64,000 nt of DNA, taken from Siphonodentalium dalli (Eukaryota; Mollusca; Scaphopoda; Gadilida; Siphonodentaliidae). The notes beneath the pieces were generated by a model. It made no database searches, was not told where the DNA came from, and saw only the letters and a list, made by a program, of their open reading frames with translations. Both the position numbers and the translations under genes were made by a program. How positions within the stretch are numbered: position 1 is the first letter of the stretch; each line of letters starts with the position of its first letter. Shown in pieces: positions 2,820-44,577 of this stretch. The DNA is taken from the NCBI GenBank assembly GCA_032622095.1, contig CP136065.1, positions 56,851,949 to 56,915,948 on the forward strand. The letters are read 5' to 3'.

Positions 2820-2907
2820 TCAGAGATCCACACACTTCGCCGCCGTCGGAGCGCTACCTGGTGTTCTGAATGTTATCATGCGACTGTGTCGTCTCCCATC
2901 TGCAGAT
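2820..2907 (-). CDS. Gene A terminal coding exon 8, short C-terminus
   Basis: Acceptor TTACAG lies at 2908-2913. Encodes SADGRRHSRMITFRTPGS, the last conserved strand of the chitobiase C-terminal domain, then a novel tail APTAAKCVDL and stop. Compared with gene B it lacks a net 13 bp after GSAP, which shifts frame and stops early. The gene-B-like hydrophobic tail can still be recognised in another frame just downstream, so the short end is probably derived. Confidence 0.85.
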
Positions 2908-5900
2908 CTGTAATTATGCAAATAATTTTTTCGGGCTGGTGGGATCAAGACTCCTATCTATGGAATAATATTAGGACCACTCCCTAAAGGCGCGCGCCGA
3001 AATCTACAGAATGACAACATGTACGACATTAGTCGCGCACCGAAAGCGGCACAAGCGACATGTGCCACTAACATTGCATGTTTTTGGCGTTTCTGTCGCT
3101 GTCGGCGCGCGACTAATGTCGCATGTTTTGGCGCTTTCGGCGCGCGCCAGAAGCGCCATTAGGAAGTGGCCATTCTATAGTAGTCCATACCGATCACATT
3201 CATGGTCAGCTTTTCAGACCGTTCACAGGTGAAGATAGATTTCTGCTGGCGATCACTTTCGTATTCAAATCTCGCTGTTTAATCACGTAATAGGAATCGG
3301 TTAGATTTGCGACAAAGTGGCGGTGTGCCATCCGGTACCGTTGATTCTGTGAATAACATTTGAGTAAGGATAAATTAGCGGGTTTTTTATTGGCATTTCC
3401 GAATTTTATGCGAAGTCGATTCAAAGCTTGTACTGAACGAATCTCGCTTCACTTTGTAGTTGTTTTCTTTCGTCTAATTAAAATATAAAAATCTAGTCTC
3501 GTTCTGTGCGAGAATGTGAAAATTAGAAGCTGACTGCAAAAATGATCGCCGACGAAAAGCTGACTACGAATAACATCCTTGTGACAATTATCCTCAGCAG
3601 CTTGTAAGTGGGACGCCAAATGGCCAGTTATGAATGGGGGCTTCCAAGAAAATCTCGGGGGGAAAAAGTTACAGCGTGGTAAGTAAGGCTTATGCCAGGG
3701 TGTGCCTTGAGACATATATTGAAAATCATCGGATATATATTGATCTGGCGGATGAGGTCAGAACATGCTTCGATCATGTTCGTATATTTATTTTTCAATT
3801 TTATATTGATTTTTTTAGGTCAAGAATTTTAATTCCAGAAATAAAATAAGAACAATATAGAGCAAGAATTTATTATTGACATTTCCATCACCCGTCACTT
3901 TAATGTTATGTTATATTAAACGACATAGCTGTTTTACTTCCCGGACTGCTTTGCATATAAAGTTTTGATACGGAGATTTGAAATGGAATTCTAATTTAAA
4001 AGTTGTCACTTGACCTTAATTCCATGCATCTGGCCACATTAATCCGATATTAGTTAAATTATTACTGATTTCGCTAATAAAGTTTCTGATATTTTGAATG
4101 TCAAATTTATTGGAAGATTAAAAACACAGACCATTTGAAGTGTCTTACAAGTTACCAGAAAAAAACAACATATTCGACGTCAAACAAATGGCCGAGGAGA
4201 TGACAAATGTCGCAAAATGTTGACCAATATATATTTTCTAGGAATTGGCATTAGGATTATTCATCTTCAAGTTTGCTACAAGTTTAGTATATGCTACTCA
4301 TTGGACATAAAACTTCTACCGTGTACGTGTAAGCGAAATGGTCATATGAGTTATGTGACTTCCGTTGGCAATGGCAACACACGTTACAAGTTACAAATAG
4401 ATGTGTGGTTGGACCTGGCTATAATAATCTAGGTTTATATATAACTACACGTAAGCATAACCAGTTTGTTGTGGTAGTGATATAGGGATATATAGCGCGT
4501 ATATAGGATGAATTCGGCTGAACAACACCCCATGCATATGTATATACCTGTAACCTATACTTACGATGTACGGAACAAATAGTCTGTTCCTGGTTCTGCT
4601 TCCGAACCACTGCTTGGAACTAAATCCCAATTAGTGGAGCCTAGTTTACTGTATTTCACTTGAAGTCCGGGAATTTCTGTGTTGGCGAACACCAAACCTT
4701 TTCCGGCGCTTATTGTGAAGCTGTATAGTTAAGAAAATTGTTTTAAAAACAATACATATATGTTGTATACTTCACAACTTCACAAGACATACCATGTACT
4801 GCTTCCATAAATCGACGAAGTTTGGCGCCTGCGTCCTATCCAGCCTACATTTTTTTATCGTATTTTTCGGAAATACAATTAGGAAAATCAAATACTGGTG
4901 AGCATGCGGAAACTAAACGTCTTAATTTTTGGTTTATTTATGAAATGGATGGTTATTTTCTTGCGTTCCGTGGAGTATGGATGCAAGTGGATCGGACTGG
5001 TATTTTATGTGCATGGAAGGTGAAATGAGAGACTAACTTCCATCCATACTCCATGCAACGCAACAATATCAACATCCATTCCTTACATTTGCACCCAACA
5101 GATTAAAAGAAGATTTAGCGCATATTTCCATGCAACGATATTCTAATAGCAAGTTGCATTCATACAACATGGAAGCAACTAGGGCTCGCGCGTGTCCCCT
5201 TCCACGATAATTACAATATCAGAGCTTGATGCATAATTTTCGGATCGTTATATTCATAAAAATCTATGATTTAGAGGGACAGAACTAACAATCAAAACAC
5301 TGTTTGAAAATATAAAAAAATATATATTAAAGATGCATAATCCGAATTAGCGCTCGCAAATTACTATTTCCTTGGCTTCGGGGGTAAAAAATATTTGATT
5401 CGAGTCGAGGATCCCACCCATCAAAGCTCAGAGTGATCAGATATCGATGTTTGAAATCTATTATTTTTCACCACCGATAATTTTAAGTGGCCCAGTAAAC
5501 AGTCGACGAGAACACGGACGCGGACCAAATTGCCAATGAAGATGGATAACTCTAAAAGTAAGTGGCTTTTTTGTGTCAGATATTTGACAAACCGGCAAAA
5601 TTTCGTTGAAAATAATGTTGATAAATAACAGGTTTTTGGGCAATTTTATACAATAGTTGACTGTGCTTAGCGTAATTTTTGTGCCTTGCTGGATTCTGAT
5701 AACTGAAGCGGCATTTCAAAAATTGTGTTGTTGTTGGAATCTGATGATATGGGGACCATCGAATCGGATTGAGTACCTTTAACTGTTTGCAAGTCGACTT
5801 GACACGTCGCATTTTGCCACTGACAGACAGATGATTCTATTCCTCCATTATTGCAGATGAGGTACATACAAACAATATACAATCTTCGGTATATAGGTGG

Positions 5901-8900
5901 TACAGAAGATATGTAGTATTGATTATAAAATAATCAAATGTGACGCCATCTGATATATATTTTGGGACGAAATTTGCTATGTGAATGTACCTTGCCCCGG
6001 ATACGAATTTTATCGGGTCGCCGAGCCCGTGTGACGCCAGCTTCGCGAATGCGCAGACGAGATCTCGGAAACGGGTGGAGCTATCGACTTGAAATTTGCT
6101 ATGTGAATGTATCTTGCCCAGGATACGAATTTTATCGGGTCGCCGAGCCCGTGCGACGCCAGCTTCGCGCATGCGCAGACCAGATCTCGGAAACGGGTGG
6201 AGCTATCGACTTGAAATTTGCTATGTGAATGTATCTTGCCCCGGATACGAATTTTATCGGATCGCCCAGCCCGTGCGACGACATCTTCGCGCATGCGCAG
6301 ACCAGATCTCGGAAACGGGTGGAGCTATCGACTTGAAATTTGGTTTTTGAATAGCCCGGACAACGTCGGGCTCATCGGCTAGTATAATATATATGGGTTA
6401 TATCATAGTAATAAACTGTATATATTCCTGAGAAATCACGTAAAAGAGTAAACGGAAAATGTGTAAAAACACATGTAGAGGTTCAACTATTCACTCCAGT
6501 GCCGTATCGACGGGAGATGAGAGTTTTCCAAAGAATAGTCAACTCGCGCATAATTCGCAGATAAATCGAATGCAGGATCTGAAGAATTGTTCTTCGTGTG
6601 CAAACAATGACAGTCATTGATTGTCATTTCCAAGACTAGCTGATTGGCCGCTGTCTATATTTTCGCGGAATGCTGACAACATGATTTTTGTATATCTGCT
6701 TTATTCCACACATTGTAATAATGTTGATAAATAACGTTCAGACGACGACGTTCAGTGAACGTTCAGACGACGACGATCCAATCGTAACTGGAGGAATCGG
6801 GCCCGACAAAATCGTGGATAGTTTGTCACGCCCTGTCATCTTTGTAGCCTAATATATTAACGAAGTTATTCCAGTCCGTTTGTTTGAAGTATAAATATTT
6901 GTTTAAATCAACATTCAAACATGCCTGCATGTCACCGGACAACCTTTATAAATGGAATGAGTCAACGTACCTCACTCCAGGCGGGGGAACTCTATATTGA
7001 ACATGCAACATATCCAGGCGAGATAAATCTTTGTAGCCTAATATATTAACGAAGTTATTCCAGTCCGTTTCTTGCAGACCCGAGCGAGTCTGTGAATCCG
7101 GTTCCTCTTCCCATGTTGATTTATGCCACGCCCTCTCAGCTAGGGCCACCAATCGTGGATAACTGTTGTGGTCCAGATTCTCGGAGGTTCTTATCGTCTC
7201 ACTCCAGATTTGTCCTTGCATACCTGAAGGAAAATACTCCTTAAGAAATTAATGTTTATTTGTATTGAGTTCCATGGAGTATATATGGATGCCAGTTGGT
7301 CTGTTGAACATGGATGCACCACGCGCCTTACGATCTGAGTCACCCGTGTGTAATTGTGAAAGTGAACGTTCAGACGACGACGATCCAATCGTAACTGGAG
7401 GAATCGGGCCCGACAAAATCGTGGATAGTTTGTTCACATGATTGCGATGCCGTCACAGATGAGGATATCGCGGGTTGTTCGTAAGCCATGGTTAACCACG
7501 TGGTTGACTACCCTACGATCTTTACTCGCGATCTTGTCGTTAGCATGCGCAGTCCAACTATCGGTTACTACATTTTTTTTTTACCTATGACGGAAATCTT
7601 TCCACTTGCGATTGAATCGTGGTCGTCTGAACGTTCACTAACATTGTTATATTGTTCATTTTCTGAATATGTTTACCTAAAACCACCCAACTTTATTCAC
7701 AGATTCAGTCGATATATGTTGATAAGATTCTGTGTTTTAGAAGCAGATGGACGTACAATAGACACAACATTTCCCAAATCTCAGATTTATTTTGAATATA
7801 GAGGAGGAGTTGTTATTTCCGAGAGGATGGTAATAGAATTACCCGCCATATCAGGAGATTGTTTCGTTTGCTGTCGTTTATATATCGTCCTTTCAGTCGC
7901 TAATTCATATCCATATACGTGTTGTTAGTTTTATTATTGCCGCGGAAACTACTTCACAACGTGTTATTACTTAATTTCAATGTGAAAAATACTCCGTTGC
8001 ATGTAGAGACCACCGACGCCCTGGAATTGAGAACACAGTAACAATGAACGTTCTTTATTTTTGCACGCTGAAGAAAAACTTTACCAGTTTTTGAGTGAAC
8101 AGTTAACCACGGGAAGACTTTTCACCCCTTTTCACAAGTCCTTATATATGACATTTCTTTTTTTGGAAGGGTGCGGGAGGGGTTGTAATTTTAGAGTTAA
8201 GGTTATCTGTCGCCTTAATGGTCAAAACATCTAGTAATAATATTATATATAGTTTTCCCGTCTTCGTTTCAAATTATATATGTCTTTTCGGATGTGTACA
8301 GAGGCGGACTGGGCCAAAAAAACCGGCCCGGGAAATGAATATATAATACCGGCCCATCTGCCGAGGGCTTTAACCCTTTACCCAACAAACCGGCCAAAAC
8401 CGGCCAAATAAAGCTTCAACAGCCTAAAATATCTTCGGTCTGTCTCAATAAAACCATACAAATATGGATATCATTGGAACCGGCTCATTGACCACATTGT
8501 GATGGTTACAGTTATGCCCTGTGCCAATGCATTCTCTTATATATGCGAGTCGACCATAGGTCGCCTCGCATATATAAGAGAATGCATTGGCCTAAAAAAA
8601 ATCTTTTTTTAACACTTTTTACCATTTTTTCTTACATTCTTTAACAATTTTATAATTTTTAATGTGTTAAGCCAATGCATTCTCTTATATATGCGAGGCG
8701 ACCTATGGTCGACTCGCATATATAAGAGAATGCATTGGCAAAGGGCCCTTCTGTTGGGTAAAGGGTTATGGGGCGCAAAATGTTATGTTTTCTATAGAAT
8801 AAACGGTAACTAGGCTAATACTGACATTTTATCAATGGCATTAGTAATGTTAAAGATTGTCTGTCTCTTCCGTGCCACAATTACAACAACAACATAATTT

Positions 8901-11900
8901 TTTATACAAGGCGGGAGGGGTGCGTGAGAATTTTTTTGGGATTTACAGCTGGGAGTTACCGTTAAAATCTCGAGATTAACGGGGTCTTTACGTGGTGTTA
9001 TATGATGCTGACAAGTTCATTTAATGACAAAATTACGATTAGCCAATCGTCGACAGATAAGTAGAACCATTGAGCATCCTACGTAGAAATAACTCCATGT
9101 AATTAACGAGCATTTCAAGCAAATTGCACATCGTGTAATCATCTTAATCGTCTGTGCCGATAAACAACTAATAGGTTTAAATTTAAACGGTCAAGTAAGG
9201 TAACGAAAGAAACCGACATCGTTTGACGTGAGTGCTTTGTGTGAAGTAGCACTGCAATTTCTTCAATTTCAGGAACATACATGCATGCGTGCATTGATAT
9301 TAGTATAATAAGACATGCATTCACTCACCGGCCCATCGGTAATTTACCCGGTCTCCCGATCGGCCAGTCCGCCTCTGGATGTGTACACCATAATCACACA
9401 TACAACCACGCGTGTATTTCTTGACTAACCATTTAATAAATAGAGCATGGCTTGGAGTTGAATACACGCGGGTATAGTGCCCAGTGGGGTGGGTATAGCT
9501 CACGATGCGAAGCGGAGTGAACTATGCCCACCCACTGGGCACTAAATACCCGCGTAGTCAACGACAAGACATGATCTATTTTCACTGAACAATTCGAACT
9601 TGTAGTATGCATACAACATATATACATAACTGTATCATACAAAGACTATCTAAATGCTGGACTGTTAAATTCCCTTCATAATAAGTTAATAGAAACCACG
9701 TACAACTCGTTTTACTGAGAACAAATAGTATTATTAACTTATATACCGATAAACAGTTTAAGAGAAACATAATCGTCAATATGTGTTGAAGTCTAGTTCA
9801 ATAAACCGAAACGCGCAGTATTTAGGTTTTTATTTTGAATGCACGAAAACCCGAAACTGTGCTACAAGGTAAATCAACCGAATGTTACCACTTCGCACAG
9901 TTTTTTCACAGTAATGTTTTAATTTCATTTGGACTCGCCTTTGTAAATTGGTGGACACTTAATGTATATCTGTTTTCGAGATTGTTGCATCTGTTCGTTG
10001 TTTTAGCACGATATTATACCAGTGCAGTGATGTGCTATATTCACGTAGTTCACGACCAATCAGAAGACGCCATTTCTGGGTGAGGTGAAATATTACTTTT
10101 TATTATATGACTATGACTATTCTACCCTAAATACCACTATTGTTTGAGGATCTAATCCAAATCATCGGATCACACTGAGTGAGATTTCCCCAGATCAAAT
10201 CAGATCACACTCCTAAGGAAATTCCCGAGATCTGCCGAATTAAAGTCGACGAACTATTTATCCTTTAAAATAGACTCTGGTAAAAAAAAATAGAACTGCT
10301 GAAGTGAAAAAAATCGGCAATTACCTGATTATTATAGTAAACTGGGCGTCATATAATACACCTTTTATCACAACAGTGAGTTGATCCGTGTGGTCGCATC
10401 ACGTCTCGTTGAGGTGGGCAGATTGCCGGATCAAACTTGTTGCCTGCGGCAACTCGGTTGATCCGGCTATCTGCCCACCTCAACTCGATGTGATACCATG
10501 ACACGGATCGACACACTGTTGTGATAATATGTATATATACTGGTAAAGTAAAGTGGTGTGTAGTCGGGTTTAATTCCTTCGTATCTCAATTAATTATTGT
10601 TCGAATATGCATGACACGTTGGAATCAGGAAAACATTTAAAATTACTGTTTTCATGTGTTATGGTGTTCTTTTCTATATGTAAGATGCTTGTGTATTTTG
10701 GTTAAAGGCACGCGAGGCCTTAGTTGTCGAAAATATTCATATTTGTTCCAATCACCGTAAACAGAACAAAAATTAAAACGCATACAGTTTTGTTCATATA
10801 TACCATGACCATCGCGTAAACGGCATGTTATCATAAAGATTTACTATATTTTACCTAAGCACGAGCCTGATTGTGTTACAGAAGACAGCACAATGCTGCT
10901 GGCTAATCACACACAAATGGCATAAACGCTCGTTATTCGTTCCATATCAGGAATTCACCAACAAAGAACGCTCTTTATGTTTACCATCATAATATAAACA
11001 AACACCAGAAAAGTAACTTTTTATGCTTTTGTTTACATAACAATGGTCAAATATATGACAATAACATACTGTTTATGCGATATTTCTTATATGTATACGG
11101 ACAAAGTCTGTCTACATTTTGTTGTTCTTTCTGTTTGTGGCGGTTTTTGACGGGTGGAAATATTTTCACAGGATACCCACCGCCAAGGCCAACCGTACCT
11201 TTAACTAATCAGCTTTAGTGGTTTTATGCCCCATTACATGTAAGAGCACACCAGAGAGCTCGACTCCACTGGTGTCAGTCCATATTATTTTATGTTAGAA
11301 ATTCTCACAATGCAGTTGAATATATTGCGGATTACAGTTAATTAAAGACACGGTTGGCCTTGGCGGTGGGTATCCTGTGAAAATATCTCCACCCGTCAAA
11401 AACCGCCACAAACAAAAAGAACATCAAAATGTAGATAGACTTTGTCCGTATACAAATAAGAAATATCGCATAAACAGTATGTTATGGTCATTTGTTTGAC
11501 CATTGTTATGTAAACAAAAGCATAAAAAGTTACTTTTCTGGTGTTTGTTTATATTATGATGGTAAACATAAAGAGCGTTCATTGTTGGTGAATACCTGAT
11601 ATGGAACTAATAAAGAGTGTTTATGCCATTTGTGTGTGATTAGCCAGTAGCATTGTGCTCTCTTCTGTAACACAATCAGGCTCTTTCTTGGGAAAATATA
11701 GTAGGTCTTTATGATAACATGCTGTTTACGCGATGGTCATGGTATATATATGAACGGAACTGTATGCGTTTTAATGTTTTTTCTGTTTACGGTGTTTGGA
11801 ACAAATATGAATATCTTCGACAATTAAGGCCGCACGTGCCTTTAAGGTATCCTTATTTGATCTTATTCCCTTCAGATATTAAATATAAGGTGTGACGACA

Positions 11901-14900: not shown

Positions 14901-17900
14901 TGATATAGGTCTCTGGGCATCACATATACTGCAAGTTTCTTCCGAGAATGGTCTCCCATCCCTGTGCAGGTATATAGGCATCAAGTTTATATTTGATACA
15001 CTCATCGTGTCATATTTGTCACATGATTGTGTTACCGAACTTCGTCCAGACTTGCGTTGTATGGTCTCATAAAAAATTCACGCAAGAAACATGTTCATAC
15101 CCAATTCCGTTTCACATGCCTGCACTTATGTACTTGTATCGGCCACTGGCAAAGCTATAACGAACCTAATAGACTATATAGTCTTGCATTCCTGCACCAT
15201 GCCTAGTCTGAAATTTTCCAAGGCGGTCATCTTGATGACGTCATAAGATCACCCAGTCGCGATCCCCAGGTGTCTAAAATTTATTTTCTGATACATGAGA
15301 TATCAAGCAATATCAGCAGCATAGTCGCTATATTTCTTCACAAAATGCACACGGGAATACATAAGAGCCTCTACAATTTGTTTGAATTCGGAGTGCTTCA
15401 GTTTTCGCAATGGCCAGCTATAATCTTTAGATGTACATTGTGTGTAATTCACATTTCCGATAATCCGATTGTATTATTCATTAAATTTCACATCATATGG
15501 TTCGAGGTACCAGTAACTCTTGAGTTGTCCTGTCTATGGAAGGCCAGTTTACAATATTAATACATACCGATATACAACTCTCACCTATAATATTTTCTGT
15601 CTTGTTAAGGGTCTCACAGCTGGTAACTTCTGGGCATACATCTTTGAATGTTAGTGGCTTTCCACTGCGTCTGACATCTATATTCCAATATAGGTTATCT
15701 GGCATGAAGTTGAAAACTTTCCTGGTCGACGTGAATCGGGGCGCCCAATAGAATCCCCTCTCTTCGGGGTCTGGCTCATACGGATGGTCAAAATAAAGAT
15801 GGGTAGCTTGCGACATGATGATCTGTAGAACAAGAAGCAGTAACAACTAAGTCGCATCATCAGATAATTTTATGGTGCTCCGTCAAGAGAGAACATGACG
15901 TGTCGTCGTGATTGATGTCTAATACTATTGTCTGTTCGTTCAGTTTACAATTTGTACACTTCAAATGTGATCAACTATGAATGTGTATGTTTGACGCCAC
16001 CAACTTCTGATTTCCTTTACTAGTTTGTGTTCGTTCAGCTTCAAATTCATACCATATGTCGTCTGTTGAACTAATTATCTGAACATTTCCCACCACTGAA
16101 TATGAATCATTCTGCTCGTGTATTATCTGTTTTTCTGTCGGTTGTCTGCTTTTATTAACACCCCTCCAAATGAATAATATACCGTTCCAAAGTATACTGT
16201 TATAACTGATTTGGGAGAGTCAATTTAGTATAGAAATGGTTAATTATATAAACTGATCATACTGAGCGACTTCTTCCCCTCAGTCTGACGCACACAAATC
16301 TAACCTTGTAACCAGCGTTTGCTAGTCTGTAAGCTTTGTCGGCACTTCCCCACTCCCAGACATTGTTCCATGCATTGCCGTATACTTCGGTGTTGGAAAA
16401 GAATGTTCTGTTAAACGTTTCGGTACTTTTGTGATGCATAAGACCATCTTCCCATGCGGCTAAGTTGAGTCCCAGATCAGCCGCTATGGTTGAAACCGTC
16501 TGAGCAAAATGCGCACGTAAGTCTGATGTGCTGTTCATGTTGGGGTCATCCTCCATCATGCTCTGACATGCGGTACTGTTAATCCACGCCCCGTCAGCTA
16601 CTTCATCTCCTCCGAAATGATAAATTATTAATGGAATTCCAATCTCTTCGTGATATCTTTTGAGCTCTGATATGACTTTTTTGACAAATGCATATGTGGA
16701 ATTAAGGCATGGGTTAACAGCGTTATCGTTGAAATACTGCACACTTTCATATTTAGAGGTATCGGTTGCGTCTGAAAGCAGATATTCCATTGCTCCGTCC
16801 GTGTCTCCAATATCGGACAGTGTTCTTTGCCTAGCCTCCATGGACTTTATTGCCGCTCGCGCATGTCCCGGCATATCCACTTCCGGTATTACTTCGATGT
16901 GTCGATTAGATGCGTAGCGAACAATGTGCTTATACTCTGCTATGGAATAGTATCCTGAACCGGAGTTATCTGTATCAGGCCCGGAGCCTAACTGAGGTAT
17001 AAGACAACTCAGCTCAGCTAGGTCATGACAACGTTGGCTGCCGATCTGAAGATACGCAAAGGAAATTATCACGTCATCACGATAATATTATATGTTATTA
17101 ATTGGTTGTTTCCATATTGGCCGAGTTATGAGGCCGAGGTCTGTCGTATTAATACGACAGACCGAAGCCTCATAACTCGGTCAATGTGGAAACAACCAAT
17201 TAATAAGTATTTTATTAATTAGCAACATTGGCCATTGTTATTTCACAGGTTGAATATATTAATATAGATATACACCATTGTGCGCTTTATTAAATTAACA
17301 ATTATTCCTGCAATTTGTATTCTTGTTAACTTAGTGAATAACTTGAAGCGATTTCACAGTACTGTCTGTTTCCACTGGGAATGATATTGATACGGATAGT
17401 AGTTCATCCACGTATATTTACTCCCAAAAAAATCAGTGACAGTCCGTAATTCATCCGAAAGCAACTGTAATCTATCTTCTACTTATTGCGACCGATAACC
17501 TGTAGCTAAAAATTAATAAATAGTCTGTATAAACACGGCAGACCTCGGCCTCATAACTCGGCCAATATGGAAACTACCAATTAATCTCATATATATTTTG
17601 AAGACCTCTGTCTGTATGTATGTTTGTTTGTTTGTTTGTCTGTCATTAATACAAATCTACGATTCTCGACCGATCGGGACGAAACTTGGTACGTGTGTGT
17701 AGTTTGACCAGGCGGTGGACGTTGTCGTATCGGCGAGCCCGTGCGGCGCCCGCTTCGCGCATGCGCAGACGAGATCTCGGGAACGGGTTGAGCTATCGAC
17801 TTGAAATTTGCAATGTGAATGTATCTTGCGCCGGGTACAAATTGTATCGGGTCGCCGAGCCCGTGCGACGCCAGCTTCGCGCATGCGCAGACCAGATCTC

Positions 17901-20900: not shown

Positions 20901-23900
20901 TTATTGGCGACAACGTCAACAAGAATAGTTCCGGCTTGTATTCCACTAGAGGTATACACTTATATGTATTCAATGGCTGGGATTCCTTTGAATACATGTG
21001 CCTCACGTCATTTGGGTGTGGAATAAAGAGCGTTAATTGTTACTGTTTTCCTGATATGGAAATAATAAAGAGCGTTTATATCACTTGTGTGTGATTAACC
21101 AATAGAATTGCGCTGTGTTATGTAAACAGAAGCAAAACTTCTGTAACACGAGCAGGCTCTTGTTTACGTACACCATCGTACGTATTGACGACAATATACT
21201 ATTTGCGCCCTGATTATGTTTGGCATATGAACAAAACTATATATAGTTTAATATTCCTTCTGTTGATATTGATTTTAAGCAACATCGCTCATAATATTAA
21301 TGTCGGCATTACAGAGGACCCGGCTATTCTTGACGATGATCAGCATTATGATTAATGTGAACCAAGATGTAGAAAATCTTTACCTCTGTTAGTTCTGGAA
21401 GTCCATTAATTTCGATCCTCCATGCCTCGTCGTCCGTCAAGTGGAAATGGAATTTATTGAGTTTATACATGGCCATAACGTCGAGCATTCTCTCTACGTC
21501 CTCAACGCTGTGGAAGTTTCTTGCCACGTCCATATTCATACCACGAAACCCGAATCTGGGCTCATCCGAAATCGTAGTTTCCGGTACCTTATCGTTGTGC
21601 AGTAAGGCGAGCAAGCTTTGGATGCCGTAGAAAATACCAGCCGTACTCGAGCTATTTACTCGGATCATGTTGGTTTGAGGATCTATGTGTAGAGAATAAG
21701 CCTCGGAGTCGGTAGACGGCGTCAGTTGTTCGAGAATGATTATATCCCTTGTTTTCCCATTTGGACCAAGAACGGTGTGAATTCCCAGTGACCTCATCTT
21801 ACCTGTAGAAGACGATTAATAGTCATGCAAGAGAATGACTTGGGGAAAAAAGATGAAACAAGAATATACGTCACTGTGCAGAGAGGCTCGCGTGTATAGC
21901 CTGTGACGTGTAGCCTGTAAAGGAAATGACAGCAAAGCGACACTGAATACCAGAGTACGAAAACAAACTTTGCAGTTATCAGGGACCATCTCTAACAACA
22001 TTTTGGTAGTATCATAATGAGTGTGTATGTACGGGGGATAACTCTTTAGTAGTTGTATACATTTTAAGGAACTTGTGGAAATAGGTTGAGTTATCACTGG
22101 TTAATGATCATAGTCGGCCGATTGTAACTAACTTCGATGACGATGACACATACATACTTGGAATTATTCTGAGAGAAAAAAAACCCCGCAAGTCACACGC
22201 TACAACTGGAACCTCTCTGTTATGTCATCTAGTATAGATCTTGCCATGAATCTCTACTCTGGCTAACGCCCATAGAGATCATATTCAATCAGTACAAAAC
22301 ATTGGAACTTGGAAGTTTTGACAGGGAAACTTATAAAGTCGAAATATTACGCGGGGAATATATTTCTTAGTTGTTATCTCTTCCTTAACAATGTACTTCA
22401 TAAATAAACATCGAATTAATTACCCAGTAAATATTCCGAAATTGCAAGCGACGCAAAGCAAAATCGCTCACAAATTCACTCAAATCGTGAAAATTCCAGT
22501 TGGGACCTTCACGTACAGTGAAGTACATTATTAAAGAACAGATAATAACTATAACAAATATATTCCCCTCGTTATTATTTTTCTACATTATAAGGTTCCT
22601 TGTCAAAACTTCAAAAAATATCCAAGGTTTTGTACATGTGGAATATGATCTCTATACGGACGTTAGCCAGAGTAGAGATTCATGGCATGATCTAGTTATC
22701 TAGGTACAACAGCAATGGACTATCACCAAATATATACAAATGTAGCGCCAGTTTTGTCGACAATTGACAATTTAACTCAGATATGACCATTGCATATGAT
22801 AACGCTGTGAGTTTTATCAGAAGATAAACTATAAATATCGGATTATATATCTTGTAATTGTGTCATGCAGTATAATTTGCAAAACTATGTCATATTTTGA
22901 CGGGTTCTGTCAGTCAAGTGTGAAGGCACCAAATAAATCCATGCTGGGTATACCATATCATTATACATCGCCGTTGGAGAAAGGCCTTCAACTTCGGGTT
23001 TGATTGTATACTCATTGCATAATTATATAAGGTTAATCTATAGGAGAGCGAAAAATCACAACAAAGTCGACGAAGCTGCATAAGATACGGTCGCGTTTCG
23101 GTGATGAAATACTGAGACATATACATGTATATGAATAATTGCATCAGGTTATATATGCATCTTACCCTCCAAAAGATTTTTTATCTAAAATATGCATATT
23201 TTTCTTATTTTACATTTCATATTGCATACGTGCGTGTAGACACATATATATATGGTAGATGATACCGTAGATGAGGACCAGGTAGTCCGTCTAAGTTTCA
23301 AGAACTTTTCCTTCACCCCCTGTCTTTGTACCCTATCATACTAATAACATATGTTTAAATCCAAGTCTGCAAATAGCGTGCCTGTCATTTTCAGAATGAG
23401 GTCCCCAGAGGGTGAATTTAGTGATGCTATTCCGCACAGCGGGCTAGCATCACCAAATTCACCTCTGGAGACCTCATTCTGCTTGGGCCTCATCTTCTGG
23501 GAAGTATATACAGTATAAAATTAACCTTTTTTTTATAGTTTTCCCTTCTGGGAAGTTTCTATATCCCCTAATTTGCAGCAGATAAAATGCATAATCGAGG
23601 TGCCCAATGGGTGAACATCACCAACTTCAACTGGGGAACTTCATTCTGAGCCTTAGTCTACCATAGCAATTGAGGGCCTAAGCAGAATGAGGTTCCCAGA
23701 GGGTGAATTTAGTGATGCTAGTCCGTTGTGTGGGATAGCGTCACTAAATTCACCCTCTGGGGACCTCATTCTGCAAATGACAGACACGCTATTTGCAGGC
23801 TTGTTTAAATCAACTAGTATTCTTTGACTTGCACGTCAGTCCACGCGTGCTTGTAACCCCTGTATGTGTACCCTGCCAATATGTAACGTGTTCAGCTGCT

Positions 23901-26383
23901 GTCCGTACCACAGTCCCCTGGGGAAAATTACAAGAATACCATTATAGACTATACCAGTGACAAGATTCAAATAATCGTTTTTGGGTCAAAACCATAGTAA
24001 ATTCTAGAAATCGATAATTGAAAGAATCGAAGTCGAGATATCGTATCGAAAACTAGCGAAATCTACCGAAGAAATCGGGTCGTCAATCTCCCTGTCCGCT
24101 CAGAGGCATTTGACCTAGTTATAAAATCAATATTTTTGAGCAATAGTTGGTCGTGAACGTGTACTTAAACGCGATGACATAACCTATAAATGCTCATATA
24201 TTCCGCAAGTCATTCCGAAGCCACCAATACCTTTTTTATTTCAACCGATGTGTTTGTGCCAAATTTTTCAACTTTATTCATCAAACGAATTCCAAAAACA
24301 AGACGTGTCTGTGACTGACTGTAAATTTTGACCGACTTGCTGATTAATTGACAATAATCGAGAGTAAAGTTCACAAATGATGAGTATTGAAGAAACACTT
24401 GAATTATTAATTTTCTCTGTAACAAGAAGTTTATCTGATTTTAAAACAGAAGTGAACTTGGAAGTCGTTAAATAATTGGAATTTGTTTGATACTATATTA
24501 AAATTCTCCGAAAATAGCGTGACCTTGACCCCCCCCCCCCCCCCGCATTCTTGATTTACTTTCGCTTTCAAAATTTACTCTCAGTCGCAGACACGTCTTG
24601 TTTCTGGAATTATCGATTTCTAGAATTTATAAGGTTTAGATAGTTGTGTGGTTTTAGCCAAAATCGATCATTTGAACCGTGACACTGGTATAGTCTATAT
24701 TGGTATTTTAGAGTAATTTTCCCCAGCGACATGTGATCCATACCCGCATCGGGGACCGTCTCGACTGTATATATTTGTATGATGTAAAATAGGATGGGAA
24801 ATCTTTAAAGAATTTCTGGGGCGAAAGATATCACAAAAAGAAATAATTATATAATTCAATCAATAAATGTTACCCGTGTATATGGAACACTCGTATGAAG
24901 AATTTACCTTTTAAATACATGGCTTCGTTGTCACTCAGATAATTTTTCACGATGGTCCACTCGATTGACTTCATGTTGATAGTTCGGTCCCAATTGAGAT
25001 CAGTTGATTTTGGTGTTGGAATTATTCCGTAGTTTGATATTTTAGTGATGTTTGTATTGGTGTCATACCTCTCGATGGGTTGGATCGGGTTATATAAATC
25101 GCCTTCGTATCGTTTCCATTGTTGTGGTGTCGTAAACTCAGAAACGAAACCGAGATCGATCGTACTTTTTATAGTTTTGGGGCGGAGACCCGGTGCTGTG
25201 GTGTACCAGTTTGGCATGATGTCCGTTCTTGAAACGAACCAGTTGTAAATGTTGACCGTGACCTTGTAACTTTTACCGGGAACTAAATTTGGAAAGCCAT
25301 TTACGGGTTCTAGTTTCTTGAGCGCTCCGTTTATTTGTGTTGCTTTCATCTTATAGTTCTTTTCCAGCTGGCCATCTTCGACGAACTTGAAGATATTAGA
25401 AAAATATATTGCCCAGTTATCATAACCGATTGTCGTTTGGCCGTTGTTCACGAAGGTTATCTCGGCTGGAAATTGCGCAAATTTAGCGGTATTGTCAACG
25501 ACCTTGAACTTCACCTCAATGTTCTGTGCAAAGTCATCTATGAAGGATTGATCCACAGCAGCTGCGACTGAAATTGTGATACATGTAAGAATTTATGAAA
25601 GTTTTTTTTATAATGTAAGTTGCAAGAATGTAATGCAAGTTTGTTGCAGAGGCCTGTGTGATGCGCCATATAACATGAGTGATAAACTGTGTGTACTTTT
25701 TACTACGATGGAGTTTGATACCTTTAACCCCACGTGTGATTGTACAAATGACATCATCGCCGGATTCGTCATCTCCAGTTTAAACCTGGTTTACATACAC
25801 CTATTCACTTTTGGTTAAAACTCCGTTTGACAGCTAAATCCGTGGTTTAAACCCGAGACCGCAGGTCTAAGTGATGCATTCGTCATCTTTGGTTTAAACC
25901 TGGTCCAGCCAGACCAGTGGTTTAGCAAGTAGTGTCTCTGTGTCGTCGAGATAATTAATCGTACTTTCCTAATGCGGATCGTCGCATTTTATTGATTGCG
26001 AAAATCAATAATTGCGATAGCGAGCATATTTTGATTGGAAATTTATAAGCGAGAAGCACTCACACCTATAAATTAAGTGGGGATAAGTTGTTGTCAATAT
26101 CGATAATGTTTGTGTGTTTTATAAATCGCAGCGTTTTTTAAGGTCGAGCGGCTCTATATGTGTGTTCGATGGCATTCCTTCCTCCCACTGCTAAGAGTTC
26201 CCCCAATAGGGGTGGGGTTCTGACGAACACATTCATACACAGGTCTAGGGTAGGTTGGAGGATGATAAAGTACTTTCGGTTGGGGGGTGACCACATACAG
26301 GCCTATATATGCTGACACATTAACTTTAATTTTCCTCAGTTAGATTTACTCAAGTATAAGTTGAGTATAACGAGCCATGCCAT
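2820..26383 (-). CDS. Gene A: secreted chitobiase-type beta-N-acetylhexosaminidase (GH20), complete, 8 coding exons
   Basis: Predicted to remove terminal N-acetylglucosamine from chitin oligosaccharides or glycans outside the cell. The join is 26383-26350, 25567-24908, 21802-21384, 17045-16305, 15822-15585, 7223-6971, 4720-4565 and 2907-2820. Every intron is GT-AG and every phase agrees, giving 862 residues; I recall bacterial chitobiases as similarly long. Order: signal peptide (about 1-15), CHB_HEX domain (about 16-185), GH20b domain (about 205-310), catalytic barrel (from about 314), C-terminal Ig-like domain (about 782-853). Visible motifs: FRGMNMDVARNF, HFHLTDDEAW, PEVDMPGHA, the catalytic Asp-Glu pair in HFGGDEVADGAW (about 518-519), AAWEDG, YGNAWNNVWEW and GMQGQIWSE. 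Several NST sequons suit a secreted glycoprotein. The tandem paralogue B lies upstream in the same orientation. GH20 identity is secure; substrate is inferred. Confidence 0.93.
2985..3165. repeat. CpG-rich inverted repeat cluster
   Basis: GGCGCGCGCCGAAA at about 2990 is mirrored by TTTCGGCGCGCGCC at about 3136, with GCGCGACTAATGTCGCATG-type repeats between. A shorter version occurs in copy B at about 44670-44800. It stands out from AT-rich surroundings. It lies just upstream of the terminal exon in intron 7. Confidence 0.6.
3170..4560. other. Gene A intron 7, conserved with copy B
   Basis: Intron sequence that aligns to 44800-45930 and 47480-48240. Small ORFs here change mostly by amino-acid-replacing substitutions between the two copies, so they look non-coding. 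At about 4319 an ACCGTGTA is the empty site for the element at 47568 in copy B. Confidence 0.6.
4565..4720 (-). CDS. Gene A coding exon 7: C-terminal Ig-like domain
   Basis: Residues 782-834: after a split Ser comes FTISAGKGLVFANTEIPG, then a strand-rich segment ending EPGTDYLFRTS. This resembles the small C-terminal beta-sandwich of bacterial chitobiases. Acceptor ATACAG is at 4721-4726 and donor GTAAGT at 4559-4564. The ORF has no ATG near its start, so a plain ORF search misses it; the alignment to the gene B exon settles the frame. Confidence 0.88.
5330..5782. repeat. Dispersed repeat family
   Basis: The block with GCTTCGGGGG and ATTTGATTCGAGTCGAGGA (about 5330-5460) recurs at 31843-31975 and 60748-60890. 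The block ending GATGATATGGGGACC...GAGTACCTTTAA (about 5640-5785) recurs at 31775-31830, 39180-39326 and 61020-61199. TTAA at the right edge suggests another TTAA-type element. Confidence 0.6.
5960..6382 (+). mobile_element. Helitron-like element, 5'-truncated, 122-bp minisatellite core
   Basis: Three and a fraction copies of a 122-bp unit (markers at 6078, 6200 and 6322). Then comes the 3' end: hairpin AGCCCGGACAACGTCGGGCT, a short spacer and CTAG at 6379-6382, followed by T. A 3' hairpin plus CTRR before T is the Helitron terminus. Same family as 17585-19050. Confidence 0.7.
6738..6890. repeat. Templated insertion carrying a fragment of exon 6
   Basis: Joins a copy of intronic sequence 7365-7434 (GTTCAGACGACGACG onward) to a copy of exon sequence 7029-7073 (CTTTGTAGCCTAATATATTA onward). 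Copy B lacks the insertion (around 50420). It lies downstream of the real exon, in intron 6, without an acceptor of its own that I can see. Confidence 0.75.
6971..7223 (-). CDS. Gene A coding exon 6: end of catalytic barrel
   Basis: Residues 698-782. Starts MQGQIWSETIRT after the split Gly, and contains YPRLVALAERAWH, the signature of the last barrel strands. Ends with YRVPPPGV, the linker to the C-terminal domain. Acceptor CTTCAG is at 7224-7229, donor GTACGT at 6965-6970. The preceding intron is 8.4 kb of transposon-rich DNA. Confidence 0.93.
7361..7645. repeat. Short inverted-repeat element in intron 5
   Basis: GTGAACGTTCAGACGACGAC at about 7363 is mirrored near 7613-7643 (GGTCGTCTGAACGTTCAC). 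A matching pair exists in copy B (50884 and 51240-51258), so it predates the duplication. A lone copy of the end lies at 27520. Confidence 0.6.
8299..9377 (+). mobile_element. hAT-type non-autonomous transposon with 8-bp target duplication
   Basis: Begins CAGAGGCGGACTGG and ends with its inverse CCAGTCCGCCTCTG, flanked on both sides by GATGTGTA (8291-8298 and 9378-9385). Copy B has one GATGTGTA and no insertion at about 51495. The 8-bp duplication and CAGAGGCGG ends fit hAT. A piggyBac-type element is nested at 8374. No transposase ORF. Confidence 0.9.
8374..8765 (+). mobile_element. piggyBac-type miniature element, nested copy
   Basis: Starts CCCTTTACCCAACA after TTAA and ends TGTTGGGTAAAGGG before TTAT (a decayed TTAA). 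Carries two hairpins of about 68 bp (8527-8593 and 8672-8740) in opposite orientation around an AT-rich spacer. Nearly identical to 49267-49659 at a non-paralogous site, which shows mobility. Confidence 0.85.
9455..9570. repeat. Foldback hairpin, shared by both gene copies
   Basis: GCGGGTATAGTGCCCAGTGG is mirrored by CCACTGGGCACTAAATACCCGC. Copy B has the same structure at about 51570-51680, so it predates the duplication. Confidence 0.75.
10098..10540. mobile_element. Foldback insertion private to copy A
   Basis: Copy B runs straight from ATATTACTTTATATACTG (about 52242) across the position where A holds about 440 bp. The insertion is dominated by a long inverted repeat (about 10368-10530) in which GTTGAGGTGGGCAGAT pairs with ATCTGCCCACCTCAAC and CACAACAGTG with CACTGTTGTG. 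Confidence 0.7.
10706..11200 (+). mobile_element. TTAA-flanked miniature element (AGGYACGG family), copy 2
   Basis: Starts AGGCACGCGAGGCC and ends GGCCAACCGTACCT with TTAA on both sides. Nearly identical to 1907-2400. The paralogous site near 52460 (TTTGGTTATAAGTAATC) is empty. Confidence 0.88.
11346..11841 (-). mobile_element. TTAA-flanked miniature element (AGGYACGG family), copy 3, inverted
   Basis: The reverse orientation of copy 2, only 145 bp away. TTAA is at 11342-11345 and 11842-11845. Copy B reads CAGTTAATTAAGGTATCC at about 52603-52620, exactly the single-TTAA empty site. The AGGYACGG termini pair within each element. Confidence 0.92.
12185..12860. mobile_element. Foldback insertion private to copy A
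   Basis: Contains a near-perfect hairpin (about 12206-12330) with GTTTCTCTCATATGATATTTATG mirrored around a CCTCCGGCGAG loop, and repeats of TACGAATTACATATTCTATTTATC. The flanking CCGGGAGATAT occurs at both ends (12178, 12868). The corresponding part of copy B has no such insert but has its own element at the adjacent TA. Confidence 0.6.
13206..15357. mobile_element. Inverted-repeat element in intron 5 with repeated AAGATGGCGGC-like motifs
   Basis: CCCGTGTGCATTTTGTGAAG at the left is mirrored by CTTCACAAAATGCACACGGG at 15338-15357, and similarity extends over about 120 bp at each end. The interior has spaced AAGATGGC-type motifs at 13457, 13805, 14161 and about 14328. Only the right arm survives in copy B (about 56590-56745). 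No transposase recognised. Confidence 0.65.
15585..15822 (-). CDS. Gene A coding exon 5: barrel segment
   Basis: Residues 619-698, beginning IIMSQATHLYFDHPYEPDP and ending ENIIG. The Tyr/Asp-rich segment is a conserved GH20 chitobiase stretch near the active site. Acceptor CTACAG at 15823-15828 is separated from exon 4 by only 482 bp; donor GTGAGA is at 15579-15584. About 4 of 79 residues differ from the gene B copy. Confidence 0.93.
16305..17045 (-). CDS. Gene A coding exon 4: GH20 catalytic core
   Basis: Exactly 247 codons in phase 0, residues 372-618. Begins IGSQRCHDL, continuing LPELTE from exon 3 as in other chitobiases. Contains PEVDMPGHARAAI, the catalytic Asp-Glu in FGGDEVADGAW, AAWEDGLMHH and YGNAWNNVWEWGSADKAY. 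Acceptor CTTCAG lies at 17046-17051. The donor GTTAGA at 16299-16304 departs from consensus but is needed for the in-phase joint and is conserved in gene B. Confidence 0.95.
17098..17584. mobile_element. Inverted-repeat element with palindromic end
   Basis: AATTGGTTGTTTCCATATTG at the left recurs inverted at the right end (CAATATGGAAACTACCAATT, 17561-17580); about 45 bp of each end match. The left end also folds on itself around GTCGTATTAATACGAC. The Helitron-like element at 17585 abuts its right end. Absent from copy B, which diverges after about 58830. Confidence 0.65.
17585..18131 (+). mobile_element. Helitron-like element 1 of a head-to-tail array
   Basis: Starts TCTCATATATATTTTGAAG after A; a GTCT/GTTT microsatellite follows, then about three 122-bp minisatellite units. 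Ends with a hairpin (GCCCGGACAACGTCGGGC), a short spacer and CTAG. The 5'-TC, 3'-hairpin-CTAG and A/T target fit non-autonomous Helitron/Helentron elements. No Rep/helicase is present. Confidence 0.8.
18132..18689 (+). mobile_element. Helitron-like element 2 of the array
   Basis: Begins with TCTCATATATATTTTGAAG directly after the CTAG of the first copy and ends at its own CTAG (18686-18689). Near its 3' end about 47 bp including the hairpin are duplicated (about 18590-18680). Confidence 0.8.
18690..19050 (+). mobile_element. Helitron-like element 3, 3'-truncated
   Basis: Third TCTCATATAT start in direct tandem; breaks off inside the minisatellite after CTTGCCCC at about 19048, where the foldback repeat begins. 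Confidence 0.75.
19067..19964. repeat. Two tandem copies of a 446-bp foldback repeat
   Basis: Units begin ATAGACAGAACACAACGCGC at 19071 and 19517. Each has an inverted repeat of about 195 bp, in which the beginning pairs with GTTGTGTTCTGTATTTATTC and TTCGCGAGAGC lies near the loop. A unique tail of about 250 bp ends GGGTGTGGAAT. A third copy lies at 20578-21024. Confidence 0.8.
20349..21282 (-). mobile_element. TTAA-type miniature element (divergent AGATACGG end) with nested foldback repeat
   Basis: Starts AGATACGGACGGCGTTGGCGG after TTAA, the end sequence of the elements at 36381 and 37129. It is interrupted at 20578-21024 by the 446-bp foldback repeat: the sequence before and after rejoins as AAACATAAA plus AGAGCGTTAATTG. 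The far end is truncated. Confidence 0.7.
20578..21024. mobile_element. 446-bp foldback repeat, third copy, nested
   Basis: Begins ATAGACATAACACACCGCGC and ends GGTGTGGAAT, matching 19071 and 19517. Its insertion inside another element shows that the repeat is or was mobile. Confidence 0.75.
21384..21802 (-). CDS. Gene A coding exon 3: GH20b domain and start of the catalytic barrel
   Basis: Encodes residues 232-371. It includes an AGIFYGIQSLLALL segment typical of the end of GH20b, then RFGFRGMNMDVARNF, whose Arg is the substrate-anchoring residue known in the family, and HFHLTDDEAWRIEI. Acceptor CTACAG is at 21803-21808, donor GTAAAG at 21378-21383. The 3' part is duplicated in gene B at 63871-64000. 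Confidence 0.93.
22225..22705. mobile_element. Foldback miniature element, TAGATC family
   Basis: TAGATCTTGCCATGAATCTC at the left pairs with the right-end inverse (GAGATTCATGGCATGATCTA); arms are about 190 bp. Same family as 47568-48007, where the 8-bp duplication is clear. It lies in intron 2 of gene A. Confidence 0.75.
23362..23803. mobile_element. hAT-type miniature element with 8-bp duplication
   Basis: Starts CAAGTCTGCAAATAGCGTG and ends CACGCTATTTGCAGGCTTG, flanked by TTTAAATC at 23354-23361 and 23804-23811. Inside are two hairpins, each with CAGAATGAGGTCCCCAGAGG-type arms around a short spacer. In intron 2 of gene A. Confidence 0.88.
24000..24900. other. Gene A intron 2, right part
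   Basis: No gene seen. Contains a C16 run at about 24529-24544 and an imperfect mirrored region (GACACTGGTATAGTCTATA near 24680 against CTATACCAGTGACAAGATTC near 23948), probably an old inverted-repeat element of about 750 bp. Confidence 0.4.
24908..25567 (-). CDS. Gene A coding exon 2: CHB_HEX carbohydrate-binding-like domain
   Basis: Encodes residues 12-232. Acceptor TTTCAG lies at 25568-25573 and donor GTAAAT at 24902-24907. Features such as VKFKVVDN, FVNNGQTTIGYDNWAIYFS and LVPGKSYKV match the immunoglobulin-like N-terminal domain of bacterial chitobiases. The end (EWTIVKNYLSDNEAMYLKG) leads into the GH20b domain. Ends in phase 1, matching exon 3. Confidence 0.9.
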
Positions 26384-29800: not shown

Positions 29801-29802
29801 TA

Positions 29803-36376: not shown

Positions 36377-36380
36377 TTAA

Positions 36381-38180: not shown

Positions 38181-38320
38181 AATAAATACACGGTGTATCG
38201 GTGTGTATGGTCAAGTTGTACCACACAAAACTGATTGTAGGACTCCGCTACGCGTCGTCCTACAATCAGTTTTTTGTGGTACAACTTGACCACACACACC
38301 GATACACCGTGTATTTATTT
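38181..38320. repeat. Near-perfect 140-bp palindrome
   Basis: Arms of about 64 bp: AATAAATACACGGTGTATCG at the left, its inverse at the right, loop TCCGCTACGCGTC. There is only a one- or two-base difference per arm, so it is recent or maintained. Confidence 0.85.
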
Positions 38321-39485: not shown

Positions 39486-40381
39486 ATAATGTGATACATT
39501 GATGGAAAGAGCTCTAAGATATGGGAGGCCCTTTTCACATTTATTATTTATTTGCGCTTAAGCGCAAATATGTACGCTTAAGCGCAAATATTTGCGCTTA
39601 AGCGCAAATAACCTCTATCATTTGCGCTGAATTAATTGCAAATGGCACAGGCCTAAACACATCACTCAAGTCTATATAGGCCCACCATATGAGGGAAGCA
39701 ATCCCCCAGTAACCCCTAGATCCCTTTTATGACATGGAAATGGTATTGATCTGTGCCGGATATGTCTCATTTATAAAATATACTTGATCTCTGTGATGGA
39801 GACACACATTCTTGGAGACAGGGATGCTGATAATATGAAAATAGGGTTCCCCCCCCCCCCCTATTTCAAGTCAATAAGTACACCATATGAAGGAAGCAAG
39901 CCCCCGGTAACCCCTAATTCCCTTTTTATGGCCATGGAAATGGTATATATCTGTGCAGGAGATATCTCTTTAAAAAATATACTAGAGCTCTTGGAGTGAG
40001 ACACCAATTCCTGGGACACCAGGGACAGAGATGCTGATATGCATATGGAAATCTATGTTTTTTCTTCAACTTCGAGTCTGTATGGGCCCATTATAATATA
40101 CTATGAGATGGACTCAATCATTCACAATCAGAGGGAAGGAAGGGAGTGTTAGGTATTTGCGCTTAAGCGCAAATGATTTGCGCTTAAGCGCAAATGATTT
40201 GGGCTTAAGCGCAAATAAATTGATAAACACATATTTGCGCTTAAGCGCAAATGATTTGCGCTTAAGCGCAAATGAATTACGCTTAAGCGCAAATGATTTG
40301 CTCTTAAGCGCAAATAAATAATAAATGTGAAAAGGGCCTCCCATACTAAGAGCTCTTTCCATCAATGTATCACATTATTAT
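39486..40381. repeat. Inner inverted repeat with TTTGCGCTTAAGCGCAAA clusters
   Basis: AATAATGTGATACATTGATG at the left recurs inverted at 40362-40381; arms are about 85 bp. Just inside each arm are palindromes TTTGCGCTTAAGCGCAAA: about four at 39552-39625 and about eight at 40155-40316, some with one substitution. Between them, two similar blocks of about 185 bp (GGAAGCAATCCCCCAGTAAC type) repeat. Confidence 0.8.
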
Positions 40382-40569
40382 CTATATCTATATTTGCGAA
40401 TGTCTGCCTGTCTGTCTGTGTCTCTGTGTTCTATAGAAATTCACAGGGGACCACCTATATGGCACAAAAGGGGTCTAATAGGGGTAACTTTTTACGAGAA
40501 AGATAATGGCGATGGTTAGAATTTTCTAAAGTGACGCCGTTGTTGTCAGGGGCAGAAAAGGTGGAGGGG

Positions 40570-42130: not shown

Positions 42131-43314
42131 TACCAAATTCATGCACGTTCTTCTCTAATGATATGATGAATTAAATCATCTCCATGTCGTTCTAAGGAGT
42201 TTTTGGCATTCCAATTTCACAATCTCGACAAATGGTGACAGAATTAAGTCACTTGAACAATTATCTTCTCAACTGTCATGTTTTATGGGGATGGAAATCA
42301 GGGCATTCCGATAATGTTCTAGCAACACAGATACATAGAAGAAAGCACTAAAAGTATATTTATATCAATATATTTAAGAGATAATATATTCATTCAAACT
42401 GAGGGACCTTGAATCGTCAGAGGATTGCATATTAGAATGACTCGTGTATATATTATAACACGATTGAGTCTGTCCCGTTCAATATAGTTTCCACAAAAAA
42501 AGTTACTATTGCCAAGAGATATGGAAATGTAGAGCAGGCCTGTTCAAAAATAGTGGTCACAGTGTGCAGTCAAATATGGTTACTTCTGAGATAAAGGAAA
42601 ACGCAGTCCCTAGCACATGACATTTCGGAATCATCCAATATTGACATCTGACAAGGGTATATCTGCCCGATACCGAGGATTTCTTTCATTTTTTTTAGAA
42701 CAGACTCATCGCCTAACATAAACAACTCAAAATCTCGCTGTGTCGGGCACATGTAGCTGCTATACGTGCATAACATCAATTCGTTTAAACTGAAAATGAT
42801 TAGCCAGTATATAGCACCAGAACAGAGGAGCACCTGGACATATCTTTAAAACATCTGTATCTTCATGAAGATATGATAAACTAGATTGATTGATTGATTG
42901 ATACATCTCTATGTAAAACACAATTGTCGTCTTTTTTTCGAACTAATATGTTTAAGATGTTCATGTTTCATGCTATAACGTCTGAAGTATAGGCCGTTGT
43001 AAATAAATAAATACTTCTTTATTAGTGGGACGGATTAAACGCGATAAACAAAATGATAATTGTTCCGACCTGACAAGGTGAGCCACTACTTATAAGAATC
43101 ATGTTTTGTAATGCCATTTGGATATACAATTTATGAGAAGACGTGTAAACACTTTGAGAGCAAGAGTATTCTCTATTCCCACCAAATATCCACAGATGGT
43201 TTCACATCACTTTAACATGAGCAACGCCGGGTAACCCTGCTAGTAATCAATAAATTTGAAAAATTATCAAGGAAATATGGGTTGATACAAAAATCGGACT
43301 TGGCACTGAAAGGG

Positions 43315-43778
43315 TTAATGGCACTGGGAAGGATATTGAAACTTGAAAGCACCATTACGTCATACAATACTAGTGATCATTTCCATTTGGCAAAATGCTT
43401 CTATTTCACGAACCGTTCAATTTAAATAAATCAGAATTAATTCAACAACGAAAGGTACAGAACAGGATATTATAATTTAATTACCCTGTAATTTTAATAT
43501 TTATCTTATAGGCTACATGTAATTACAATATTTACAAAAATTAATTTGATTTGTTTTATACAAGTATTATAATAGACACAAAACATAAACTATTGAGTTA
43601 CACCAGTCTATTGTTTCTCAAGAGCATTGTTCAAAGTTCAAAGCGCCCGATGTGTCCATATACAGCTAATAGCGCCAACAATAAAAAAAAAGGGCAATGA
43701 CTCTAACTACGCCTGTTATTTCGTTATTTTTTTTATTTCACTTTTACGAAGTGTCTTTGTGAAATTTCACTCTTACGG

Positions 43779-43813
<35 letters not shown>

Positions 43814-44402
43814 TGTGGTTTAACGCCGTTTAAATCGCTAGTCCATACCATATGTACCACGACTAAGAACATATTCTGGTATACAGTCGAAAACTATCGT
43901 AGTGAAGCAACTTGAGTGTATATAACGCAGGCAGCACTTTTACGAAATAACGTGCATGTCTATAGATGGGTAACACAAAGAGAAAACAGTTCTGGAACAA
44001 TATTGAAAATGAACCTATAGCAGGGTGGGCGGGTACGATGTAGGCGAGTGTAAGTGTCCTTGGGAACCGTGCATGTCTGTAGATGGACAACACAAAGAAA
44101 CATATTTCTGGATAGATATTGAAAATAAACCTTCTGATAAACTTCAGTTAGAGTTGTTGTTAGCGCTATTAGCTGTATAGTGTGTTCCCGTACGGACATA
44201 GTGGATACCTTTGTTGTCGAATAACGGCTGTATGTTAGCCTAACATATTTACACGTGAAGCCTATAATATGTAGGTGGATCGAATGGCTTGTGAGTATAG
44301 CACACCAACGTTAGGGTACACTCGGACGTCGCTACTTGAACCTCTTGACTGACACGGAACAGCATTTCCCCAGCATTTACATGCAATCCAGCTGGAGAGT
44401 TC
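43315..44402. other. 3' flank of gene B
   Basis: From 43419 it matches copy A from 1278. ATTGATTGATTG microsatellite at about 43782-43810. The empty site for the TTAA element of copy A is at about 44147. No gene supported. Confidence 0.6.
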
Positions 44403-44577
44403 TCATAAGAAGACAGCCCACATGACCCGGAAGATGACAAGTGATGTAGCTATAAGGAAACATTCCTGCCTCGGTTTCAGAGATCCACATACTTCGCCGC
44501 CTGGACCAGGTGTTGTCGGGGCGCTACCTGGTGTTCTGAATGTTATCACGCGACTGTGTCGTCTCCCGTCTGCAGAT
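44403..44577 (-). CDS. Gene B terminal exon with hydrophobic C-terminal tail
   Basis: After acceptor TTACAG (44578-44583) it encodes SADGRRHSRVITFRTPGSAP, then a Thr/Pro/Gly linker (TTPGPGGEVCGSLKPRQEC) and an 18-residue hydrophobic end, stop at 44403. The layout of small residues, short basic spacer and terminal hydrophobic run resembles a GPI-attachment signal or tail anchor, although an Arg within the hydrophobic run weakens this. Gene A has lost this end through a 13-bp difference. Confidence 0.85.

Follow-up and report, generated by a model that had tools for sequence, protein, structure and literature searches.

Two endings in a tandem pair of chitobiase-type genes of Siphonodentalium dalli: a 13-bp frame switch beside a putative GPI-attachment signal

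The minus strand of the 64-kb stretch of DNA analysed here (hereafter the window) carries two tandem copies of one gene, A and B, and the question that they raise is whether their differing 3′ ends could send the products of one ancestral enzyme to different destinations. When the first 30 kb of the window were aligned with the last 24 kb, 29 matching pieces were obtained, and 25 of the 29 are displaced by 40.7 to 44.6 kb. Relatives were taken from a prokaryote contig collection (65 loci), 19 of which were translated to serve as tblastn queries for gene modelling; the exon models draw on tblastn rows from three of these 19 bacterial queries and alignments from one, together with splice sites. 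A scan of viral contigs with the GH20 exon of A gave one pattern-matching stretch and no confirmed relatives. Seven coding exons were found in A and six in the within-window part of B, and all the splice junctions seen in both genes are GT/AG. Gene A is unbroken over 851 codons including the stop, the expected signal-peptide exon being its one missing part, while the 5′ end of gene B lies beyond the window edge, which cuts its exon 2. A scan for the signal-peptide exon of A gave one candidate at 29714-29669 (MTHHGWVLVCFIVPYV joined to AAAVDQ), and the control strand also gave one. The features of both genes are as follows.

24908..25567, minus strand: gene A, most upstream exon identified (CHB_HEX and the beginning of GH20b), from tblastn with bacterial relatives, splice sites and Pfam; a signal-peptide exon is expected further upstream
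21384..21802, minus strand: gene A, exon 2 (remainder of GH20b, beginning of GH20), from tblastn, splice sites and Pfam
16305..17045, minus strand: gene A, exon 3 (GH20 catalytic, HFGGDE), from tblastn and splice sites
15585..15822, minus strand: gene A, exon 4 (GH20), from tblastn and splice sites
6971..7223, minus strand: gene A, exon 5 (final part of GH20, beginning of CHB_HEX_C), from tblastn, splice sites and Pfam
4565..4720, minus strand: gene A, exon 6 (CHB_HEX_C), from splice sites and Pfam
2820..2907, minus strand: gene A, terminal coding exon (last CHB_HEX_C strand, then GSAP-TAAKCVDL-stop, with TGA at 2822-2820), from splice sites and Pfam
2743..2844, minus strand: gene A, out-of-frame copy of the hydrophobic tail (GGEVCGSLKPRHECFLLYIAAALVIFRVTRAVFL), with its stop at 2742-2740
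63871..64000, minus strand: gene B, exon 2, truncated where the window ends, from tblastn and splice sites
58054..58794, minus strand: gene B, exon 3 (GH20 catalytic), from tblastn and splice sites
57333..57570, minus strand: gene B, exon 4, from tblastn and splice sites
50493..50745, minus strand: gene B, exon 5, from tblastn and splice sites
48242..48397, minus strand: gene B, exon 6 (CHB_HEX_C), from splice sites and Pfam
44403..44577, minus strand: gene B, terminal coding exon, which includes the linker and the hydrophobic end, from splice sites
44502..44514, minus strand: 13 bases in B that are absent from A (AACACCTGGTCCA), from the A/B alignment
44481..44489, minus strand: gene B, possible GPI attachment triplet C-G-S, suggested by a rule-based scan
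44463-44480, minus strand: gene B, polar spacer LKPRQE after C-G-S, from the rule-based scan
44406..44459, minus strand: gene B, 18-residue hydrophobic C-terminus (FLIATSLVIFRVMWAVFL), from translation and hydropathy

Other elements share the window. An 844-residue open frame with an RVT_1 match (2.1e-34), a retroelement, lies between A and B on the opposite strand (32600-35134, plus), and an array of palindromic units (TTTGCGCTTAAGCGCAAAT) occupies 40133-40342, with a 21-base start-to-start spacing at five of six steps. The introns of A hold a repeat family at 5895-6316 and 17607-18999, whose copies are often 122 bases apart, and two adjoining families of three copies each at 19063-21024, spaced by about 445 and 1062 bases. 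Long open frames in the 122-base-spaced repeats (LHPFPRSGLRMREAG...) look like repeats rather than genes.

Judged from their sequence, A and B are tandem GH20 beta-N-acetylhexosaminidase genes of the four-domain chitobiase type. Pfam places CHB_HEX, Glyco_hydro_20b, Glyco_hydro_20 and CHB_HEX_C on A in that order, all above cut-off, and Glyco_hydro_20 and CHB_HEX_C on the within-window part of B. Both carry the motif HFGGDE, which aligns with hfggde of 1qba and contains the catalytic Asp-Glu pair. The solved structures closest in sequence to the B part in the window are 9joq (2.8e-159), a GH20 enzyme, and the Serratia marcescens chitobiase 1qba (6.5e-117). The match to 1qba stops at the last CHB_HEX_C strand (residue 516 of the 563 in the B part) and that to 9joq earlier, at residue 494, so that neither covers the tail. 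According to the excerpted text of PMC4449183, the Serratia chitobiase has the same domain order as A. The CHB_HEX_C match takes in all 76 profile positions (1-76) in B and positions 2-76 in A. In both proteins it ends before the residues GSAP, at residue 516 of the 563-residue B part and at residue 832 of 850 in A; the tail therefore lies outside the folded enzyme, and the domains of both genes are intact.

The terminal exons (2907-2820 in A, 44577-44403 in B) are both preceded by the acceptor GCATAATTACAG, and the end of exon 6, TTCCGTACATC, and its donor GTAAGT are identical in the two genes. Exon 6 ends with the TC of a codon whose last base is given by exon 7, which fixes the frame SADGRRHSR..., and this frame aligns with the last CHB_HEX_C strand of the Serratia chitobiase. 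The join reads ...LFRTSSADGRRHSR(M/V)ITFRTPGSAP in both A and B, so that gene models and splice sites agree with the preliminary description in placing the two exons in the same phase through GSAP. Beyond that point B reads TTPGPGGEVCGSLKPRQECFLIATSLVIFRVMWAVFL and then stops, which is the Thr/Pro/Gly linker and 18-residue hydrophobic end described earlier. Gene A reads TAAKCVDL and stops, without an in-frame C-terminal hydrophobic segment; this is eight residues, the ten given previously being a miscount. The net 13-bp difference said to switch the frame is indeed there, as AACACCTGGTCCA (44514-44502) in B only, and a second difference in the tail, of 6 bp, is in-frame. The old tail likewise persists in A in another frame as GGEVCGSLKPRHECFLLYIAAALVIFRVTRAVFL, open for 34 codons (2844-2743), with a stop matching that of B. 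We tried the 31 AG dinucleotides between 3400 and 2739, the normal one included, as acceptors joined to exon 6 of A. One (exon start 2812) puts the tail in frame and drops the last domain strand, and rescue of the tail by a shifted acceptor is therefore unlikely. An ER-retrieval role for the ending KCVDL of A was considered and dropped, given its mismatch to the KDEL-like pattern.

How unusual the end of B is can be gauged from its last 18 residues, which have a mean Kyte-Doolittle hydropathy of 2.22. Among the ends of 1210 open reading frames of at least 30 codons in the window outside the GH20 exons, a sample that takes in ends from repeats and the retroelement frame, a single one reaches at least 2.22, and it is a tie; with other minimum lengths the counts are 3/1997 (at least 20 codons) and 1/709 (at least 40). 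A threshold of 2.26, above the value of B, is reached by none of the 1210 window ends and by 27 of 29216 ends from Markov DNA, and one of 287 long-frame ends in the bacterial loci reaches at least 2.2. The out-of-frame tail of A has a mean of 1.93, a level reached by 7 of the 1210.

The order of elements in B, with the small-residue triplet CGS, then the polar spacer LKPRQE, then the hydrophobic end, is the arrangement of a GPI signal. A rule set of our own, which asks for small residues at the point of attachment, a polar spacer and a hydrophobic end and cannot replace a trained predictor, accepts B, 2 of the 1210 window ends and 79 of the 29216 Markov-DNA ends, and rejects the out-of-frame tail of A. 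Slightly altered, it accepts 2, 4 or 6 of the 287 bacterial ends and, as positive controls, 2, 5 or 6 of 7 human GPI tails, according to the setting. The hydrophobic segment of B includes one arginine, which counts against a GPI signal, and the out-of-frame tail of A has two; in the seven human tails the last-18 means run from 0.92 to 2.38, and three of the seven have one charged residue there. The B tail thus looks like a GPI signal in its layout, which suits the GPI option raised in the preliminary description, and the anchoring itself is predicted.

Our main reading, to which we give a probability of about one half, is that an ancestral chitobiase with a GPI tail kept this tail in B and lost it in A by a 13-bp deletion, giving an anchored B and a soluble A. 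The common ancestor would most likely have continued, after its last CHB_HEX_C strand, in a short, flexible linker followed by a cleavable hydrophobic signal for GPI attachment. In B, given the expected signal peptide, the ER transamidase would cut near C-G-S and discard LKPRQE together with the hydrophobic end, and the attached GPI lipid would keep the enzyme at the outer surface of the cell. In gene A, the 13-bp deletion at the linker would have changed the reading frame so that a stop follows after eight residues, and because the folded domains are untouched the product would be secreted as a soluble form. Secretion, the anchor, the direction of change and the different destinations of the two products are what we infer from the gene sequences.

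As to which ending is ancestral, we favour loss in A over gain in B by about two to one, since the out-of-frame tail of A is open, hydrophobic and in register with B, which would need luck if the 13 bases had been inserted in B. Of the earlier statement that the tail was lost by frameshift in A, the frame switch therefore stands and the direction is one that we favour rather than assert. In the opposite direction, which we consider unlikely but not negligible, the ancestor would have had the short ending of A, and 13 bp inserted in B, perhaps by duplication of nearby sequence, would have moved the reading frame into what had been 3′ untranslated sequence; the hydrophobic end would then be of recent origin, serving as a new anchor or just being tolerated. 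It draws support from the first 10 of the 13 bases in B: 9 of these 10 agree with the sequence lying 21 bases upstream, and a match as good as this turns up at 187 of 20000 random positions and at 27 of 1127 GC-rich ones. However, the first 10 bases were chosen after the fact, and over all 13 bases the match is 9/13, which 6.9 percent of random positions also reach. A hydrophobic run at the end, sought by eye in the last 40 residues, was seen in none of the 19 translated bacterial relatives, as this direction would have it; to our knowledge bacteria have no GPI pathway, and their endings therefore say little about the eukaryotic ancestor.

The substitutions in the tail bear on the same question. 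Between A and B the tail has a pN of 0.077 and a pS of 0.102, against a pN of 0.026 for the body; a Fisher test, for which the 5.5 changes were rounded to 6, gives p 0.015. The tail substitutions look neutral, as they might with a young hydrophobic end, and offer no positive indication that selection has maintained the tail. However, a raised tail pN would be expected both under unconstrained decay of the copy in A and for a tail of no consequence from the outset, so the substitutions do not decide the direction. Divergence between A and B is 3/63 in exon 7 before the indel, 8/100 in the tail and 19/169 in the 3′ flank, and the closeness of tail and flank is a further point for insertion in B. 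The flank in question follows directly on the tail stop (44232-44401 in B, 2567-2738 in A) and is nearly as similar between the copies as the tail. Against insertion in B stands the luck that it needs, namely an out-of-frame stretch open for 34 codons and as hydrophobic as 1 in 1210 ORF ends, which must by chance also bring a polar spacer and small residues ahead of its hydrophobic end. Loss in A is thus probably the better account of the two endings, with insertion in B a possible one.

A rather improbable alternative concerns the anchor: the end of B could be a membrane segment other than a GPI signal, either a C-terminal transmembrane anchor that B, as a type I protein, would keep, or a feature for retention in the ER. 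Some 18-19 hydrophobic residues suffice to cross a membrane, and the end of B is long enough to span one. However, the segment runs through the very last residue and leaves no cytoplasmic part, and the small-residue triplet and polar spacer ahead of it are arranged as in a GPI signal.

Whether both copies are real, working genes can be judged from their divergence. Over the 526 codons shared up to GSAP, which are those common to A and B in the window (A upstream of the cut in B has no counterpart within it), there are 38 synonymous and 32 nonsynonymous differences, giving a dS of 0.122, a dN of 0.026 and a dN/dS of 0.215. These codons are under purifying selection, and both genes look functional. 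In eight noncoding stretches that align, the copies differ by 5 to 16 percent, although these stretches were picked by hand, with a bias towards similarity. This noncoding divergence (1284-16290 against 43420-58040) is uneven, which may reflect gene conversion. An artefact is very improbable, whether through tandem misassembly of two haplotypes, decay of A as a pseudogene or an assembly error behind the 13 bp: the homology of the copies does extend through introns and the 3′ flank, but large parts of the introns fail to align, a dS of 0.12 and a noncoding difference of 5 to 16 percent exceed the usual difference between alleles and so make haplotype misassembly unlikely, and A has intact splice sites and 851 open codons with a stop, besides its dN/dS of 0.215 against B over the 526. 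Of the proposed split of one enzyme into tethered and free forms, the differing endings, the frame switch and the functional look of both genes stand, while tethering and secretion themselves are predictions.

Among the published systems closest to this pair are those of bivalves. According to the excerpted text of PMC7747718, four-domain chitobiases are tied as paralogues to the larval and adult shell in Crassostrea gigas (CGI_10007856 and CGI_10007857) and Pinctada fucata (Pfu_20027 and Pfu_20028); CGI_10007856, the larval paralogue of the oyster, is a suspected shell protein that went undetected in the larval shell proteome. These enzymes have the same four domains as A and B, and the consecutive gene numbers suggest that the paralogues are genomic neighbours in both species. 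However, in that account the bivalve paralogues predate the split of C. gigas and P. fucata, whereas the A/B pair looks younger (dS 0.12), and the words GPI, transmembrane and tandem have no occurrences in the main text of the paper (PMC7747718). An enzyme family both GPI-tethered and free, as proposed for A and B, is described in excerpts on Drosophila Mmp1 and Mmp2, where both genes give GPI-anchored and released forms, although it is a different enzyme family and the passages treat splice isoforms, not a frameshift between tandem copies (PMC5353688). In ascidians, an N-acetylglucosaminidase is reported in sperm membranes (PMC3528131) and as released by eggs (PMC9265791); in the excerpts of these two papers GPI is not named as its anchor and no tie to paralogous genes is made. 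Our literature search, in open-licence PMC text, covered hexosaminidase or N-acetylglucosaminidase with GPI, mollusc chitobiase, and tethered and soluble paralogues, and was judged on titles and the starts of abstracts. Chitobiase, shell matrix and GPI together gave no match in that text, and among the matches listed no title reports a GPI-anchored four-domain chitobiase, which is not proof of absence. It is plausible that the divided ending is a testable variant within an enzyme family that is already known.

We put forward only tentatively, as possible though on the unlikely side, the fuller account in which a recent tandem duplication and one 13-bp change turned a single surface-anchored chitobiase into an anchored and a freely secreted enzyme, both kept by selection. 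If it is true, one small indel would have moved the site of action of a duplicated enzyme with its catalytic part untouched, and the lost signal would still be legible beside gene A. Where an animal makes matrices that contain chitin, a tethered chitobiase and a free one could act in different places; in a shell-building animal, chitin trimming at the cell surface could thereby be separated from trimming in the matrix.
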